DNA from: a virus
Reading direction: 5' to 3' (one strand)
Length of the DNA stretch: 36,159 nt
Virus record (IMG/VR): IMGVR_UViG_3300020185_000135
Location: 1-36,159 of that record
Of the stretch, positions 52 to 36,159 are shown one piece after another; within the stretch, counting starts at the first letter, position 1; every line of letters starts with the position of its first letter. The notes below the pieces were generated by a model. It was not told the DNA's origin and did not search any database. It saw nothing but the letters and a program-made list of their open reading frames with translations. The translations under genes and the position numbers were made by a program.

Positions 52-101
52 GTTATTGTTAAATCTGTTCCAAACTTAAGTCAATTATTTTGATCTGCAA
101 G
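52..101 (-). promoter_or_regulatory. Bacteroidota-type early promoter with conserved leader (copy A)
   Basis: On the minus strand the -7 box TAAGTTTG lies at 78-71 and a TTG -33 element lies 19 bp upstream at 100-98. This fits the TTTG-N19-TAnnTTTG consensus of Bacteroidota. Immediately downstream comes the shared leader 15-mer AGATTTAACAATAAC (66-52), then the start codon at 38. The same promoter appears at 36074-36123 in the other terminal copy. Confidence 0.75.
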
Positions 102-198: not shown

Positions 199-969
199 TT
201 AAAGTTTTTTGTAATAGGTATAATTAATGGCTTTCCCTATGTCATGTTTACACTTTTCTGGATCTACTTCTTTTAAACGTAATTCGGGATAGTATTTGCT
301 TTGCATAATACGATAACATTCTTTAGACATATTCAATCTATCAAAACTTTGCAAACCGCCCTCATTCGTTCCTAGTGCTGCGTCTTGGTGTAATCCATAA
401 TATGTTAATATTTTACCATGACCATTTACTTTTAATTCTAAATACAATATTAGATCGTCATGCAATAACAAATCATTGTGAATACTATATAGGTTTGTTC
501 TTATAATGTAATTACCCGAAAAATTGTTAGATCTAGGTTTAAATCCTGTTTTTTCACTACGCAACCAATCCATAACATTACTTACACCAATAGCCGATAT
601 TTCTGGATCATCTTTAAATTTAGCACATATTTCTAAAATTGATAAATCTGTGTGTTTTGCAATTTCATGTTTTTTAATACCTCGTTTTTTAAACGACATA
701 TCGTCATCAACTTTCCAAATTGCATCATAACCGTTTTCCTTTGCGTATTCTCTTATTTGTATTAATTGATCTATATATCCACTATCAATGCCTTGTACGG
801 CTCCTTTTACTACCATTTCACTAGGTAGTGTCTGAATGTAATATGGATATTGACTCGGACATACAAATACACGTACATCTGCGTTTTTAATCTCTTTGAT
901 CCAATGACCCGTAGTTTTTTCTATACGGTATGGTCTATTATACGACGGTATTGCAATGAGTATTTTCAT
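199..969 (-). CDS. Predicted GT-A fold glycosyltransferase, TET-associated-like (GT1)
   Basis: A 256-residue protein. An N-terminal nucleotide-sugar-type strand motif IPSYNRP is at residues 7-13, an aspartate triplet DDD at 88-90 (the metal/UDP-binding DxD position of GT-A enzymes), and a distal acidic motif HDDLILY at 170-176 where the catalytic base usually lies. The layout matches the TET-associated glycosyltransferase class described for phage DNA base hypermodification. The sugar donor and acceptor are unknown. The start overlaps the stop of the upstream glycosyltransferase gene by 4 bp (ATGA), so the two are translationally coupled. It is the last gene of the ParB/GT operon. Family assignment is from motif reading; DNA as substrate is inference from context. 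A protein or cell-surface acceptor cannot be excluded. Confidence 0.62.
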   Translation of the reverse strand: MKILIAIPSYNRPYRIEKTTGHWIKEIKNADVRVFVCPSQYPYYIQTLPSEMVVKGAVQGIDSGYIDQLIQIREYAKENGYDAIWKVDDDMSFKKRGIKKHEIAKHTDLSILEICAKFKDDPEISAIGVSNVMDWLRSEKTGFKPRSNNFSGNYIIRTNLYSIHNDLLLHDDLILYLELKVNGHGKILTYYGLHQDAALGTNEGGLQSFDRLNMSKECYRIMQSKYYPELRLKEVDPEKCKHDIGKAINYTYYKKL

Positions 970-1712
970 TTGTAAGGGAATTTTAATGTACGTTCACCCT
1001 CAAACAAATTTTTCTTCATGTTTGTTGCATTTTTTATATGAACACACTCACCGAATAATTCTCTTAACAATAACGTATCTCTTTTAAGATTTTCATCGTT
1101 ACGATCCATGCTACAACCACCATTGCTTTTCCAATTATCTTTGGTAAAAAAAGCATACCGATTGTCTATGATCATAAAGCGGTTTTTATATACATTGTAA
1201 GCACTTATAAAATGGTCTTCACCCTCGATTAGTCTAGGATCATATTTTAGGTTATGACCTTTTAAAAAACCTGTATGACTTCCATTAAGAAAACCTGTAA
1301 ATGAAAAGGGTTTCATAGGATTATATGCTACTGGTCTTCTAACATGAGTAAAACCAAACATTTTAGCACCACATTGTTTTGCAATTGATTCGTTTTGTTC
1401 AATTATTTGCAGTATCATTTCTTGATTTGTCACTTTATACGGTTCACCCTCTTCTGTATACATTTTACGTACATAATCAATATCGTCATCTAGCATAAAA
1501 ACTGACTCAAAGTGATCTAAAACAAATTGTCTAGCCATTGTAATACCACGTACTTCTTGAGGTTGTGCTATAATTTCTAGGTCTTTGTTGTATTCTTTGT
1601 ATTGATCTACTTCGTCATGCGGAACAACTAGAATAAACTTATCCGTTACACTTGTTTTAGTTAAGATCCTGTCTGGTCTTCCTTTACTTAAAACTACGAT
1701 TTTGCTGTCCAT
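966..1712 (-). CDS. Predicted TET-associated-type glycosyltransferase (GT2)
   Basis: A 248-residue protein with the strand motif VVLSKGRPD at residues 6-14, a conserved GITMARQ stretch at 56-62, the metal-binding triplet DDD at 75-77 and a distal EGEDHF motif at 163-168. This order (GRP, R-rich helix, DDD, ED) is characteristic of the phage TET-associated glycosyltransferase family, thought to attach sugars to modified bases in phage DNA. The start overlaps the end of the ParB-like gene by 19 bp and the stop overlaps the next glycosyltransferase by 4 bp, so three genes form one coupled unit. No base dioxygenase or hydroxymethylase was found in the window, so the modified base is unknown. The glycosyltransferase fold call is firmer than the substrate. 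Confidence 0.68.
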   Translation of the reverse strand: MDSKIVVLSKGRPDRILTKTSVTDKFILVVPHDEVDQYKEYNKDLEIIAQPQEVRGITMARQFVLDHFESVFMLDDDIDYVRKMYTEEGEPYKVTNQEMILQIIEQNESIAKQCGAKMFGFTHVRRPVAYNPMKPFSFTGFLNGSHTGFLKGHNLKYDPRLIEGEDHFISAYNVYKNRFMIIDNRYAFFTKDNWKSNGGCSMDRNDENLKRDTLLLRELFGECVHIKNATNMKKNLFEGERTLKFPYK

Positions 1713-2338
1713 TTCTCATATAGTTTCATAAACTCTTTTAATTTAACAATTCTACATTCACCCACTTGTTGTGATTTGTAACTTTGTTTATTCTCTAGTT
1801 CAAAAGTATTTTTTAACCACATATAGTCAATTTCATTTTCGGTAAAGATCATGACAAAATCATAATGCTCACTAAATTTTGGTGCTATTGGGTATACTGG
1901 AGTATCGGTATCAATATCTTCAAATTTTTGTTCAAAATCACTTAACAATTTAGGCAATTCGGAATCAGAAAATCCTATTTCAAATAACTTTTCACGATCT
2001 GCTAATGTTATGACTTTTTCCATGTCAAATACACCACCACTTTTGTTCCAAGTTAAATTCATTAATTTTTCTTGATCCATAGGCATATACTCATACGTTA
2101 CTGGTACTTTCTTGTGTCCTAGATCTTTTGCTACACTCAATCTCTGATGACCACTAATAAGTATATTTTCTCTTCCTTTGAAAGTGTTTATTTTTAAAGG
2201 ATCACGAAGTCCGTACTTTTGTACACTCTCCATTAACTCCTTTTTCTTTTTTGGTGTTATCTTCCGTGGATTATATTCGGAAGCAATAGGTACTTCAATA
2301 TCTACCCAATGAATTTCTAGATCTGGTATTTTGCTCAT
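1694..2338 (-). CDS. ParB/sulfiredoxin-fold domain protein
   Basis: A 214-residue protein. Residues 8-70 carry the ParB N-terminal domain signature: the NPRKI stretch (23-27), the LRDPL segment (44-48) and the nucleotide-binding box GHQR at 63-66. The C-terminal half (about 145-205) is a separate alpha/beta region with no motif I can name. Phage ParB-like proteins of this size are usually linked to DNA modification or methyltransferase genes rather than partitioning, and this one directly precedes two predicted glycosyltransferases with overlapping reading frames. It is preceded by a structured leader and a -7 box. The start context GTCATGAGCAAA is nearly identical to that of the gene starting at 2947. 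Confidence 0.75.
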   Translation of the reverse strand: MSKIPDLEIHWVDIEVPIASEYNPRKITPKKKKELMESVQKYGLRDPLKINTFKGRENILISGHQRLSVAKDLGHKKVPVTYEYMPMDQEKLMNLTWNKSGGVFDMEKVITLADREKLFEIGFSDSELPKLLSDFEQKFEDIDTDTPVYPIAPKFSEHYDFVMIFTENEIDYMWLKNTFELENKQSYKSQQVGECRIVKLKEFMKLYEKWTAKS

Positions 2339-2351
2339 GACATAATATTAA

Positions 2352-2421
2352 AATAAGGAGTTGGTGAAAAAAACATGACGTTTCATGTAGAAGATTTAAC
2401 AATAACCACCAACTCCCGTTA
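2352..2421 (-). promoter_or_regulatory. Structured leader of the ParB/GT operon: nested hairpin with anti-leader segment
   Basis: In the minus-strand transcript a perfect 10-bp outer stem (GGAGTTGGTG, 2416-2407 in complement, with CACCAACTCC at 2366-2357) encloses about 40 nt. Inside is a second hairpin, CATGA-AACG-TCATG (2387-2374), followed directly by seven T residues (2373-2367), which looks like an intrinsic terminator. Between outer arm and inner hairpin lies GTTATTGTTAAATCT (2406-2392), the exact reverse complement of the 15-nt leader shared by five other operons. The structure sits between a -7 box and the ParB start codon, so it could be an attenuator, a trans-acting antisense element or simply a terminator for the upstream operon. 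The structure is seen directly; the role is inferred. Confidence 0.65.
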
Positions 2422-2434
2422 TTTTGTTTGAACA

Positions 2435-2442
2435 CAAATATA
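2435..2442 (-). promoter_or_regulatory. Probable -7 box for the ParB/GT operon
   Basis: The minus strand reads TATATTTG, a full match to TAnnTTTG. No TTTG is found at the expected -33 distance, so the promoter may be weak or activated. Transcription from it would begin just ahead of the structured leader. Confidence 0.45.
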
Positions 2443-3079: not shown

Positions 3080-3097
3080 GTCTATTTATTTATATCT

Positions 3098-3130
3098 GTT
3101 CTCAATGTGTTCTCAATGTGTTCTCAATGT
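3098..3130. repeat. Three perfect tandem 11-bp repeats
   Basis: GTTCTCAATGT is repeated three times without gap (3098-3108, 3109-3119, 3120-3130), followed by a partial fourth start (GTTCC). On the transcribed strand this is ACATTGAGAAC times three, ending in GAACAGAT, which resembles the start of the shared early leader (GGAACAGAT). The unit is close to one DNA helical turn and lies in the gap upstream of the 41-aa mini-gene. A protein-binding array is the simplest reading. Confidence 0.8.
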
Positions 3131-3147
3131 GTTCCTAATTAAGAAAT

Positions 3148-3864: not shown

Positions 3865-3891
3865 GTTATCGTTAAATCTGTTTCAAACTTA
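3865..3891 (-). promoter_or_regulatory. Early promoter B with conserved leader
   Basis: The minus strand carries the -7 box TAAGTTTG (3891-3884) followed by AACAG and the leader 15-mer AGATTTAACGATAAC (3879-3865), one base different from copies A and D. No clear -33 TTTG is visible. Upstream, 3892-3991 holds only AT-rich intergenic sequence and no gene. Confidence 0.65.
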
Positions 3892-3991: not shown

Positions 3992-4828
3992 TTATTTTTT
4001 TTTGCGATATTTTGGATCTAGGATCATAGGTGTTGTATTTTTCCACTTGATCTGGTGATGAAGTCTTACGTGTTTTGCGTTCATCATTGCTATTTTCACA
4101 CTACTAGGTTGCATCATTACACTATGAAAAGACTTAACATACGTACCACTTAAAGCATATTGGTCTGACATACCACCTTTACTACTTTGTGTATCTCCTT
4201 GACTTAAATTTATATTTGTAAAAGTGAAAAATACTTCACCTCTAGATCCTAGAGTTGTATAGGTGTTTACGTCTTCATTGATTGATCCTATAAATTTAAA
4301 TCTACGATCTGTACTACATAAAAACGAGTTCATACACTTACGTTTTAGTTTGATCCCACTAAATCCCCCGATATGATCCCCACCTTGACTAAAAGCAATA
4401 CTTTTAATATTAACACTTTTGTAGAATTTTAGCATGATCTCAAATACTTTGTCTAGGTTGTTAATTTTCTTTTCACCCTCTACATATCGATAACCTAGAG
4501 AATAATAGTCATCGTCAAATTGAACAAAATACTTGATTCCTAATTTTTCAGCAATATCAAAACAAGCATTTCGGGCATGAATTATAACTTTGCGATTATC
4601 AAAATTGTTTCCCTCATCTACTCGATCTGCGTACCACTTTTTATCGAATATTTCTATGTTCTCTTTACCAAAGTTTTTTACATACTGATCAATAGTTTTG
4701 TCTTCATTGTCAATTACAAAGACTACACGACCTGTATATCCTCTTGCTTTGATCAACTTCATAGTTTTTACATTATCGGGTCTACCATGAGTTAATATGA
4801 AAACTGCAAAATCATTCAGTATTGCCAT
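3992..4828 (-). CDS. Predicted GT-A glycosyltransferase, TET-associated-like (GT3)
   Basis: A 278-residue protein with the nucleotide-sugar strand motif ILTHGRPD at residues 11-18, HARNACF at 84-90, the metal-binding DDD at 105-107 (FVQFDDDYY) and a distal NEDVNTY motif at 184-190. The architecture parallels the two glycosyltransferases at 199-1712, but the sequence is clearly diverged. It overlaps the upstream 133-aa gene by 17 bp, suggesting a dedicated partner. It ends operon C; downstream is AT-rich sequence without a clear terminator. Predicted to modify phage DNA by analogy with the family; the acceptor is unknown. Confidence 0.65.
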   Translation of the reverse strand: MAILNDFAVFILTHGRPDNVKTMKLIKARGYTGRVVFVIDNEDKTIDQYVKNFGKENIEIFDKKWYADRVDEGNNFDNRKVIIHARNACFDIAEKLGIKYFVQFDDDYYSLGYRYVEGEKKINNLDKVFEIMLKFYKSVNIKSIAFSQGGDHIGGFSGIKLKRKCMNSFLCSTDRRFKFIGSINEDVNTYTTLGSRGEVFFTFTNINLSQGDTQSSKGGMSDQYALSGTYVKSFHSVMMQPSSVKIAMMNAKHVRLHHQIKWKNTTPMILDPKYRKKK

Positions 4829-6122: not shown

Positions 6123-6572
6123 TTATTGATACTCTCTATATCCATAATTGAATATGTTTAACTCATACTCTTTTGCAAGAGTCATGATCCCAAAATGTGC
6201 TAACTCAAAATTAAAGAACTCTTGATTGTCTAGGATCTCTTTTAATCCACGTTCAATATGCCACGTTTCTCTATCTGCTTTTCTTTTGTTTTCTTGCGTT
6301 AGATAATGCAACTTGGACATTTTGTCGAATCGTAGGTTTTTCTCATCCACATCTCCGTAGAATTTAGTTGTAGGATTAACTATTGTATTATACTCACTAA
6401 CTGCCTTATTAAGATCGTTTACTTGTTCTTTGTAATCCTCATATATAGCAGTATATTTCTCTACTGACTGACTTACTGTGTGTACTGAAACTTTTAATGA
6501 AGCCGAGATCTTGATCTTTTTATTCTTGACTGCTTCTTCTAATTGATCAAAGGAATTAAATAATGTTTTCAT
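6123..6572 (-). CDS. First gene of early operon C, helical protein, 149 aa
   Basis: A predominantly helical, coiled-coil-like sequence (for example residues 35-60, VEKYTAIYEDYKEQVND) with no named domain. It follows promoter C and the conserved leader with the start about 15 nt after the leader 15-mer. It resembles the first gene of the 36060 operon in general character only. Confidence 0.65.
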   Translation of the reverse strand: MKTLFNSFDQLEEAVKNKKIKISASLKVSVHTVSQSVEKYTAIYEDYKEQVNDLNKAVSEYNTIVNPTTKFYGDVDEKNLRFDKMSKLHYLTQENKRKADRETWHIERGLKEILDNQEFFNFELAHFGIMTLAKEYELNIFNYGYREYQ

Positions 6573-6587: not shown

Positions 6588-6639
6588 ATTATTGTTAAAT
6601 CTGTTTCAAACTTACAAAATTTAATTTAATATAATCAAA
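6588..6639 (-). promoter_or_regulatory. Early promoter C with conserved leader
   Basis: Minus strand: TTTG (6639-6636), 21 bp spacer, TAAGTTTG (6614-6607), then AACAG and the leader 15-mer AGATTTAACAATAAT (6602-6588), which differs from the common form only in its last base. Confidence 0.75.
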
Positions 6640-7316: not shown

Positions 7317-8042
7317 TTACAATAAATTTAATAATTGGTCATAATACTTACGACATATTTCTATTCTCTCGATCATTTGCTCTATAACTTGATCATCTCT
7401 TTGTATTAAAAAACGTTTAACTCTGTTTTTATCCTCTATGTGATCAAATACGTGTTGCCCACGTACACGTTCTTCAACTTCGGCTTCAATTGTTTCCATG
7501 TCTTTATCACTATTTGAAGGAAAAGCCATTTTCTGCCATGATTCTCGCTTGATCATGTCTTCGATCATGTACTCGGGTGTATTTGTCAAACAATAAACTA
7601 ATTCGCATTGATCCATACCCGATAACCACAGATAAGACATCATTTGATAATAGTATGATTTGTTTTTTAATTCACTTTGAAAATAGACTGGGTAAAATGT
7701 ATTACCACTCCAACTTGATTTCACATCTCCTAAAACTGTTTTTGATAACACGTCTGGCTCACCACCAATGTAATCATTTGACAATCTAATTTTGGGTTTA
7801 TCTATATCTACATCTAACCAATCATAAACACGACTTGCAAGTTTAATTGATTCGTCTTCAACAACTATACCTTTTTCAATTTGTTTTGATCCTAGTTCAT
7901 CGCGTATTCCAAATACGTTATAAACTAATGCTTGTTCTATTGCGGTTTTTGCAGTTTGACCTAATGGATCACTTTTGGATCTTGAATTAGTCATTAATGC
8001 ACCCATGCTACTTGCTCTAGGCATATATTCATGTACACTCAT
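7317..8042 (-). CDS. YqaJ-like PD-(D/E)XK exonuclease
   Basis: A 241-residue protein. The nuclease core is visible as E62 in the helix GIVVEDESI, D97 in GGEPDVLS, the D-x-K signature GDVKSS (106-108) and the QxxxY-type helix YYYQMMSYLW (131-139). Enzymes of this kind resect double-stranded DNA for single-strand annealing recombination. It is 3 bp downstream of the ERF gene and next to an OB-fold protein, completing a recombination module. Likely to process phage DNA during replication and concatemer formation. Confidence 0.8.
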   Translation of the reverse strand: MSVHEYMPRASSMGALMTNSRSKSDPLGQTAKTAIEQALVYNVFGIRDELGSKQIEKGIVVEDESIKLASRVYDWLDVDIDKPKIRLSNDYIGGEPDVLSKTVLGDVKSSWSGNTFYPVYFQSELKNKSYYYQMMSYLWLSGMDQCELVYCLTNTPEYMIEDMIKRESWQKMAFPSNSDKDMETIEAEVEERVRGQHVFDHIEDKNRVKRFLIQRDDQVIEQMIERIEICRKYYDQLLNLL

Positions 8043-9522: not shown

Positions 9523-9572
9523 GTTATTGTTAAATCTGTTCCAAACTTAAATATTAAATTTAATATAACAAA
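9523..9572 (-). promoter_or_regulatory. Early promoter D with conserved leader (best consensus match)
   Basis: Minus strand: TTTG (9572-9569), exactly 19 bp, TAAGTTTG (9549-9542), then GAACAG and the leader 15-mer AGATTTAACAATAAC (9537-9523). This is a full match to the Bacteroidota TTTG-N19-TAnnTTTG promoter. Confidence 0.85.
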
Positions 9573-13703: not shown

Positions 13704-13755
13704 GTTATTATTAAATCTGATCCAAACTTAATAAATTTAATTTGATATAAACAAA
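13704..13755 (-). promoter_or_regulatory. Early promoter E with conserved leader
   Basis: Minus strand: TTTG (13755-13752), 21 bp, TAAGTTTG (13730-13723), then GATCAG and the leader 15-mer AGATTTAATAATAAC (13718-13704), one base different from copies A and D. It drives the replication operon. Confidence 0.75.
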
Positions 13756-34626: not shown

Positions 34627-35271
34627 CTAAAACATAGTTTGTTGGTTATTTTTTGCTTTCCATTCTGCCATGTGTCTTATACTCTTATGGTGAACATTTC
34701 TCTTGTCGTATCCGTAGAAACCGTCTTCTTTGATAGTTTTGTTTTGGAGATCCATAAGGTAAGAATTGAATTTATCTTCATAAGGATCCGTCATTTCAAC
34801 TTTATTTTCAAGTTTAGCACCCTCTTTTATGAAGTAATCAAATGATCGTCCGAGGATCTTGCCTTTTCTTGTATGATTATCTAGAGCAAAATCTGGAATG
34901 TCAAAATTGTCATCTGTTACCATTGCATACACTTTAGCATGATCGCAGATCCTAGATTTTGGAGATCTTACAAGCAACATGATAGCATGAATAACAACAA
35001 CTTCTGATCCGTGAGTATCTCCTAGTTCTAGGATTGTTTTATAGTTATTGTAAAGAGCATTTATTTGTTGTCCGATTTGGGGGTTTGCTAGTCCGATGTC
35101 TTCCGAAGCCACACACAACATTCTTTTCCATAAATACTTGGAGTATCCCGATGAGAATAATTCGATTCCAAAGTAAAGGGACTCACGTTCTAATCCTCTT
35201 CGTACACATTTTTGAAACGCACTAGAACATTCGTAAAAATCATAATCTTTTCTTGTTAAAATTTGAGGCAT
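34627..35271 (-). CDS. Stand-alone RarA/MgsA C-terminal-domain-like protein, 214 aa
   Basis: The sequence resembles the C-terminal region of the AAA+ recombination factor RarA/MgsA: SSAFQKCVRRG (16-26), WKRMLCVASEDIGLANP (48-64), SPKS (103-106) and DNHTRKGK (131-138). There is no Walker A or B, so the ATPase part is absent. The C-terminus is basic (WKAKNNQQTMF). RarA acts at stalled replication forks as a tetramer held by this domain, so the phage protein could form mixed assemblies with the host enzyme or bind its partners. That role is inference. Confidence 0.7.
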   Translation of the reverse strand: MPQILTRKDYDFYECSSAFQKCVRRGLERESLYFGIELFSSGYSKYLWKRMLCVASEDIGLANPQIGQQINALYNNYKTILELGDTHGSEVVVIHAIMLLVRSPKSRICDHAKVYAMVTDDNFDIPDFALDNHTRKGKILGRSFDYFIKEGAKLENKVEMTDPYEDKFNSYLMDLQNKTIKEDGFYGYDKRNVHHKSIRHMAEWKAKNNQQTMF

Positions 35272-35658: not shown

Positions 35659-36060
35659 TTAATAAATAACTGCGTATTTGTCGCTAAATTCTTCTAACGT
35701 TAATTCTTGTTTTTGATCCCAATCTCCACGATTATAATAGAACTTGTCATATTCTGGTTTGATCTCCATTAATTCCATTATTTGAAAAATATTTGATCTA
35801 TCTTTGGTTGCTCTTTTGTGTCTGCTTTCAAAGTTTTTAGTCATTGAGGCATACAATTTGATAAAAGATTCTAGTAAAGTATTGTCTTTTGCGTATTTCT
35901 CTTTTGCTTCTTCTAATTTCTTGTCGGTTTCTTTAATTAAAATCTCATTCACTTGTTGTACCTCATGAAGAAGTTTCCAACGATCCTGTAATTTTTGTAC
36001 TCCGTTTAGTAGGTTAGCAATGTTTCCGAAATCTGTGGTTAATTGTGCAATGTTTTTCAT
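35659..36060 (-). CDS. First gene of early operon A, coiled-coil protein, 133 aa
   Basis: Mostly helical (LQDRWKLLHEVQQVNEILIK, KKLEEAKEKYAKDN) with an acidic C-terminal segment ending DKYAVIY. No known domain. Its promoter and leader lie at 36074-36123 and, because of the terminal repeat, also at 52-101. Probably among the first phage proteins made. Confidence 0.68.
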   Translation of the reverse strand: MKNIAQLTTDFGNIANLLNGVQKLQDRWKLLHEVQQVNEILIKETDKKLEEAKEKYAKDNTLLESFIKLYASMTKNFESRHKRATKDRSNIFQIMELMEIKPEYDKFYYNRGDWDQKQELTLEEFSDKYAVIY

Positions 36061-36159
36061 GTTTTTTTTTTTTGTTATTGTTAAATCTGTTCCAAACTTA
36101 AGTCAATTATTTTGATCTGCAAGTGTTTTTCCCAAAAGTTTTTTTGGGTTATTTGGGTT
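36023..36159. repeat. Terminal direct repeat, right copy
   Basis: Matches 1-137 with two mismatches (36031 and 36033). It includes the start of the 133-aa gene, promoter A with its leader (15-mer at 36074-36088, -7 box at 36093-36100) and the TTGGGTT pair. Confidence 0.9.

Follow-up and report, generated by a model that had tools for sequence, protein, structure and literature searches.

The window analysed here, a stretch of viral DNA of 36,159 nt (IMG/VR record IMGVR_UViG_3300020185_000135), carries on its minus strand a ParB/glycosyltransferase operon whose leader contains GTTATTGTTAAATCT (2406-2392). This is the exact complement of a 15-mer, AGATTTAACAATAAC, that heads five other transcription units (Table 1). 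All six sites, five sense copies and one inverted copy, are present where a sequence-only reading of the same DNA had placed them. That reading spoke of five early promoters; the five leader-bearing promoters are there, but one of them heads the terminase and structural operon and so they are not all early. The shared leader is present only on the first gene of each operon, and the ParB/glycosyltransferase operon is the sole strong-looking operon without it. The leaders at 6602 and 3879 head two operons of genes mostly of unknown function, the former including a second TAGT glycosyltransferase. The copies at 52-66 and 36074-36088 probably represent a single promoter, the genome being circular.

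Several further features of the window were observed. The contig ends repeat each other over about 137 nt (1-137 and 36012-36159) with a few mismatches, which suggests a circular or terminally redundant genome with an assembly error or a strain difference. A DNA hypermodification cluster (199-2338 and 3992-4828) comprises two TET-associated glycosyltransferases and one glucosyl-HMC glucosyltransferase-like protein. The late operon has a match to the MgsA AAA+ ATPase C-terminal domain at 34627-35271, and an MgsA-like protein is also encoded beside the ParB and glycosyltransferase genes in L029. An 11-mer, ATGTGTTCTCA, is repeated in tandem three to four times at 3094-3137, separating two small genes.

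Table 1. Positions of features in the window, with leaders and elements of related phages
Feature	Position	Strand	Remark
Antisense seed GTTATTGTTAAATCT	2392..2406	-	complements the predicted first 15 mRNA nucleotides (+1 to +15) in five other units
Target leader, exact	52..66	-	same promoter as 36074-36088 via overlapping contig ends (probable)
Target leader, exact	36074..36088	-	heads operon 36060 -> MgsA-like -> terminase -> structural genes
Target leader AGATTTAACGATAAC, A to G	3865..3879	-	G-U pair retained
Target leader AGATTTAACAATAAT, C to T	6588..6602	-	G-U pair retained
Target leader, exact	9523..9537	-	heads recombination operon
Target leader AGATTTAATAATAAC, C to T	13704..13718	-	G-U pair retained; heads replication operon
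ParB-like protein	1694..2338	-	first gene downstream of element
TET-associated glycosyltransferase (TAGT family)	966..1712	-	
Weak similarity to beta-glucosyl-HMC-alpha-glucosyltransferase	199..969	-	phrog_842, 8e-7
Predicted -7 promoter box TATATTTG of ParB/glycosyltransferase operon	2435..2442	-	sequence match; box position from PMC9723704
Outer stem, 5' arm GGAGTTGGTG	2407..2416	-	sequence, fold
Outer stem, 3' arm CACCAACTCC, then TTATTTTAAT	2357..2366	-	terminator-like, weak T-tract; sequence, fold
Inner hairpin ACATGA-AACG-TCATGT, then seven T (2373-2367)	2373..2388	-	sequence, fold
mRNA leader of G002			TAACAATTAAAACAAAA
mRNA leader of G020			TTAAACAATTAAAAC
mRNA leader of G012/G013			AAAACAAAACA
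mRNA leader of G029			ACAAAACAAAAC
mRNA leader of L284			TAACAAACAAAAA
mRNA leader of G032			GTGAAACAATTAAAAACTAACG
Element in relative	L013:151-260		
Element in relative	L250:13908-13985		
Element in relative	L029:3372-3447		
Element in relative	L072:5642-5725		
Element in relative	L284:67-150		
Element in relative	L237:7211-7305		

The shared leader and its complement in the window

In Flavobacterium the TAnnTTTG box lies at -12 to -5 (PMC9723704), and the A that follows GAAC in TAAGTTTG-GAAC-AGATTTAACAATAAC would therefore be +1. By this Flavobacterium rule the 15-mer is predicted to be nucleotides +1 to +15 of the five transcription units. The conserved leader block (TAAGTTTGRAWCAGATTTAAYRATAAY) extends beyond the 15-mer and takes in the -7 promoter box. 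Of this block the inverted copy matches the transcribed portion alone; the promoter portion is equally conserved among the five leaders yet is not copied. A copy that stops at +1 is expected if RNA rather than DNA is matched, although a protein operator restricted to the transcribed part would give the identical pattern.

Under a first-order model of the window coding strand 1.7e-4 chance copies of the complement are expected, and 4.7e-6 in ten 100-nt leaders; the earlier judgement that a chance match of 15 nt is unlikely in 36 kb holds. The seed forms 15/15 base pairs with each of the five leaders at -14.8 to -17.7 kcal/mol, against a mean of -4.1 and a best value of -11.8 kcal/mol for shuffled leaders, and the three leader substitutions keep pairing through G-U wobble, as the sequence-only reading had proposed. 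By itself the complementarity in the window is suggestive, because that reading had screened many features. Coincidence, or an inverted duplication of the leader without function, is nevertheless extremely improbable: an AT-rich genome of 36 kb does contain exact inverted repeats of some 15 nt if any pair counts, but the expectation for this motif is the low one given above and the same gene context recurs, with different sequences, in at least seven lineages.

The ParB/glycosyltransferase leader has a predicted promoter of its own, a sequence match to the box at 2442-2435 with +1 expected near 2430 and an upstream spacer that resembles those of the other promoters. The 10-bp outer stem, the inner hairpin and the run of seven T described earlier are all present. 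In the predicted fold (-23.8 kcal/mol, z = -4.5) the antisense bases lie unpaired between outer stem and inner hairpin, where they had been placed, except for the first of the 15. The terminator appears weak in the window, with a long loop on the outer stem and TTATTTTAAT as its tail; clear terminators are found in L029, L072, L374 and G025. An invertible segment, given the 10-bp inverted repeats that flank the seed, was considered and dropped, as a promoter is absent from its inside.

Could the element control its own operon only? Leader-bearing mRNAs would then pair with the nascent ParB leader and shift the balance between termination and read-through. In the window and six relatives the element does form part of a coding operon's leader, and the window has two hairpins with T-runs and a terminator weaker than those of relatives. 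However, these hairpins are nested rather than mutually exclusive and the seed lies outside both stems save for one base, so pairing would not switch them directly. The free-standing units described below, among them strongly terminated ones followed by a gene with its own promoter, also argue against such control, and we consider it unlikely.

Complementarity conserved through changing sequence

A terminase search of IMG/VR returned 144 relatives at 59-94% identity. Every relative has its own mRNA leader, and the leader sequences differ among relatives. In six lineages besides the window (G002/G003/G007, G020, G012/G013, G029, L284 and G032) one operon leader complements the lineage's own leader. 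Related phages had been named beforehand as the place where loop and leader should keep their pairing, and pairing with the own leader is kept despite the differing leader sequences. The element-bearing operon in the six lineages starts with a small membrane gene and/or ParB and usually heads the late cluster. Judged by DnaB helicase (57%) the nearest relative is G032, which shares the layout of the window element, with a strong outer stem and the antisense in the loop. Three of these genomes (G002, G020 and G032) were found by antisense match first and gene context second, while G012, G013, G029 and L284 were reached via gene context.

The assignment of elements to leaders was evaluated by a swap test across seven genomes, taking the opening 63 nt of every element with no segment chosen; the score averaged the four longest runs of complementarity to the gene starts of each genome. 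In the antisense direction the true assignment is the best among 5040 permutations, and in the sense direction it ranks 756/5040. Seed duplex energies also place the true assignment at 1/5040, with seeds picked by eye. In dinucleotide shuffles within genomes the antisense run length was matched in 0-1/200 for 9/10 context-defined loci, and in 5/200 for G032; sense-direction values within genomes are mostly at chance. Complementarity is conserved through changing sequence in at least seven lineages and is strand-specific. Leaders and seeds are alike between A and B, and between C and D, which makes the seven lineages less than fully independent.

These data bear on two further explanations. A DNA-binding regulator might recognise the 15-mer by all six promoters, inverted at ParB, as one meaning offered by the sequence-only reading had it. 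The motif coincides with the start sites of five promoters and is close to the sixth, and operators likewise co-vary with their regulator. A DNA operator repeat is expected to occur independently of orientation, but the match is antisense in every lineage with sense matching at chance. In addition, the partner is the leader of gene starts, in G020 also of gene starts that lack an adjacent promoter, and an RNA hairpin adjoins or encloses the seed. We regard an operator as highly improbable. Alternatively, the seed may target host mRNAs with similar leaders, the complementarity to phage leaders being secondary. Gene starts in Flavobacterium are typically A-rich (PMC6847099) and the phage leaders may resemble those of the host; the seed, however, follows each phage's own leader and not one common sequence, which makes a host-directed RNA very unlikely.

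The distribution of the element is patchy. Among the other relatives most late-operon small genes are nearly leaderless and without the element, and a broad ParB scan returned mostly ParB genes without it. The small-gene alignment is too divergent to serve for scanning the collection. Searches with the promoter-leader block or the ParB protein returned no close relatives of the window from IMG/VR, a 16-mer alone as query gave scattered single matches only, and INPHARED holds no cultured relative; the phage and its relatives are uncultured. In relatives the late operon begins with a short membrane protein gene; the window has no such gene ahead of ParB. The product of this gene has a conserved LDR..PH..HP.F..W pattern (L013:270-446, L250:13990-14178, L029:3469-3687 and L237:7319-7567).

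Free-standing units

Is the element confined to leaders of coding operons? An antisense scan controlled by shuffles covered 497 promoter-like intergenic sites, 18 of which score >=6 against 5.75 expected; among sites that bear a terminator the count is 8 against 0.85. Free-standing units of promoter, seed and terminator are found in G025, G027, L374, L291 and L272, with G028 and G031 as weaker candidates. The units lie past the last late gene, ahead of the early genes, and include cases in which the terminator is strong and the next gene has its own promoter. In the predicted folds of the elements the seed is largely unpaired next to a terminator hairpin, which is the usual layout of bacterial small RNAs.

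Exact-run scanning of 33 further loci from new TerL relatives gave no site that scores >=4, where 0.68 would be expected. The element is therefore not universal; the late small genes in these loci are nearly leaderless. L400, L403 and L417 each have a promoter-terminator unit at the junction that pairs, with small bulges, with the locus's own early leader and AUG. Out of 2000 shuffles, 10, 14 and 1, respectively, equal or exceed this pairing, and in all three loci the seed pairs best with the target of its own locus. These units were recognised only through gapped pairing, with the target selected after inspection, and the paired target is the top-ranked gene start of the locus for L403 only. 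Their pairing supports the antisense reading, short of proof.

Other structured leaders were observed in the same collection. The late/early junction also has a second structured RNA, consisting of a promoter, CCTCTTAATGAATTTGGATGTG...CCAAAGGATTTAAGAGG and a T-run (L403:1851-2000, L417:2310-2460, and G023 at oriented position 6276), which is common to several contigs and has no Rfam match where searched. Promoter-hairpin-T-run leaders also occur at oriented positions 7919 of G028 and 26073 of G008, at 2927 of G020 (L250) and at L400:2470; they have long conserved-looking stems and are unlike the anti-leader elements in sequence.

A model for leader control in trans and its relation to known systems

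Based on these observations, we propose that the element specifies a phage trans-acting antisense RNA that blocks the translation starts of most phage operons, a reading to which we assign a probability of roughly 0.62. The seed is complementary to several mRNAs encoded elsewhere. The promoter at 2442-2435 would give an RNA of about 80 nt if transcription terminates, or the 5' end of the ParB mRNA upon read-through. The 15-nt seed, presented in the hairpin loop, would pair in trans with the first 15 nt common to the mRNAs of the other operons; pairing would hinder 30S loading and possibly also affect mRNA stability. The ParB and glycosyltransferase genes would escape because the leader is absent from the producing operon. 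Initiation in Flavobacterium relies on an unstructured A-rich leader and not on a Shine-Dalgarno sequence (PMC6847099), so that an RNA complementary to the leader, often reaching the AUG, should block initiation. On the window targets the seed would pair over roughly -34 to -10 from the AUG, with its near edge 10 to 19 nt off and the AUG itself outside; in relatives it often extends into the start codon. One steric point counts against the model: pairing of the full seed within the closed loop of the window element would be awkward. From the sequence we infer transcription, the RNA 3' end, pairing in the cell, repression over activation, and timing. A trans-acting antisense RNA was among the meanings first offered; the pairing kept in relatives and the free-standing units favour it, while the window itself could still hold a cis attenuator.

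What might such an RNA do? The simplest role is probably an early-to-late switch, since the element usually lies at the start of the late cluster or beside early genes. In the window the role may be a broader damping or a late shut-off, because the leader also heads the terminase operon.

Phage gene switches have mostly been credited to proteins or to antisense RNAs against single genes. If the model is correct, a single RNA directed against a leader shared by operons offers compact global control. There is about an even chance that such RNAs form a widespread, fast-changing class in Bacteroidota phages, in which a shared mRNA leader and its matching antisense RNA give one-RNA global control with a code private to each phage. 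An RNA of this kind escapes similarity searches of the Rfam type, since leader and RNA are altered in step from one phage to the next. The elements also make gene timing accessible to testing in uncultured Bacteroidota phages, which infect hosts that do without Shine-Dalgarno initiation, and are a possible source of orthogonal repressor-leader pairs for those hosts.

Lambda OOP and P22 sar are phage antisense RNAs that control phage genes and are encoded opposite one target. The element described here, in contrast, is encoded away from its targets and matches several operons. The C4 or CI antisense RNA of P1, P7 and P4 derives from an operon leader, and C4 acts on one operon in immunity. Derivation from a leader is a shared trait, but the targets here are many leaders. 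Rfam covariance models, the C4 family included, gave zero matches at gathering score in the window and 16 relative loci; a sub-threshold match to a human lncRNA was dismissed as noise. T4 RegA is a protein translational repressor that acts at the starts of many phage early mRNAs. It is a functional analogue, with a protein in the place of the RNA repressor proposed here. The initial remark that no phage system of this type has been described is uncontradicted by the open-access literature searched, which gives incomplete coverage; that literature includes part of a 2025 review of phage small RNAs (PMC12197685), in which no RNA of such a type was found, and a review of post-transcriptional control in T4 (PMC3014915). 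Trans-acting antisense sRNAs such as VpdS and PreS, as presented in PMC12197685, are alike in having a promoter, a single-stranded seed, a terminator hairpin and pairing close to translation starts. The present elements differ from them in that one RNA matches the leader of most of the phage's own operons, and in that seed and leader change together from phage to phage.
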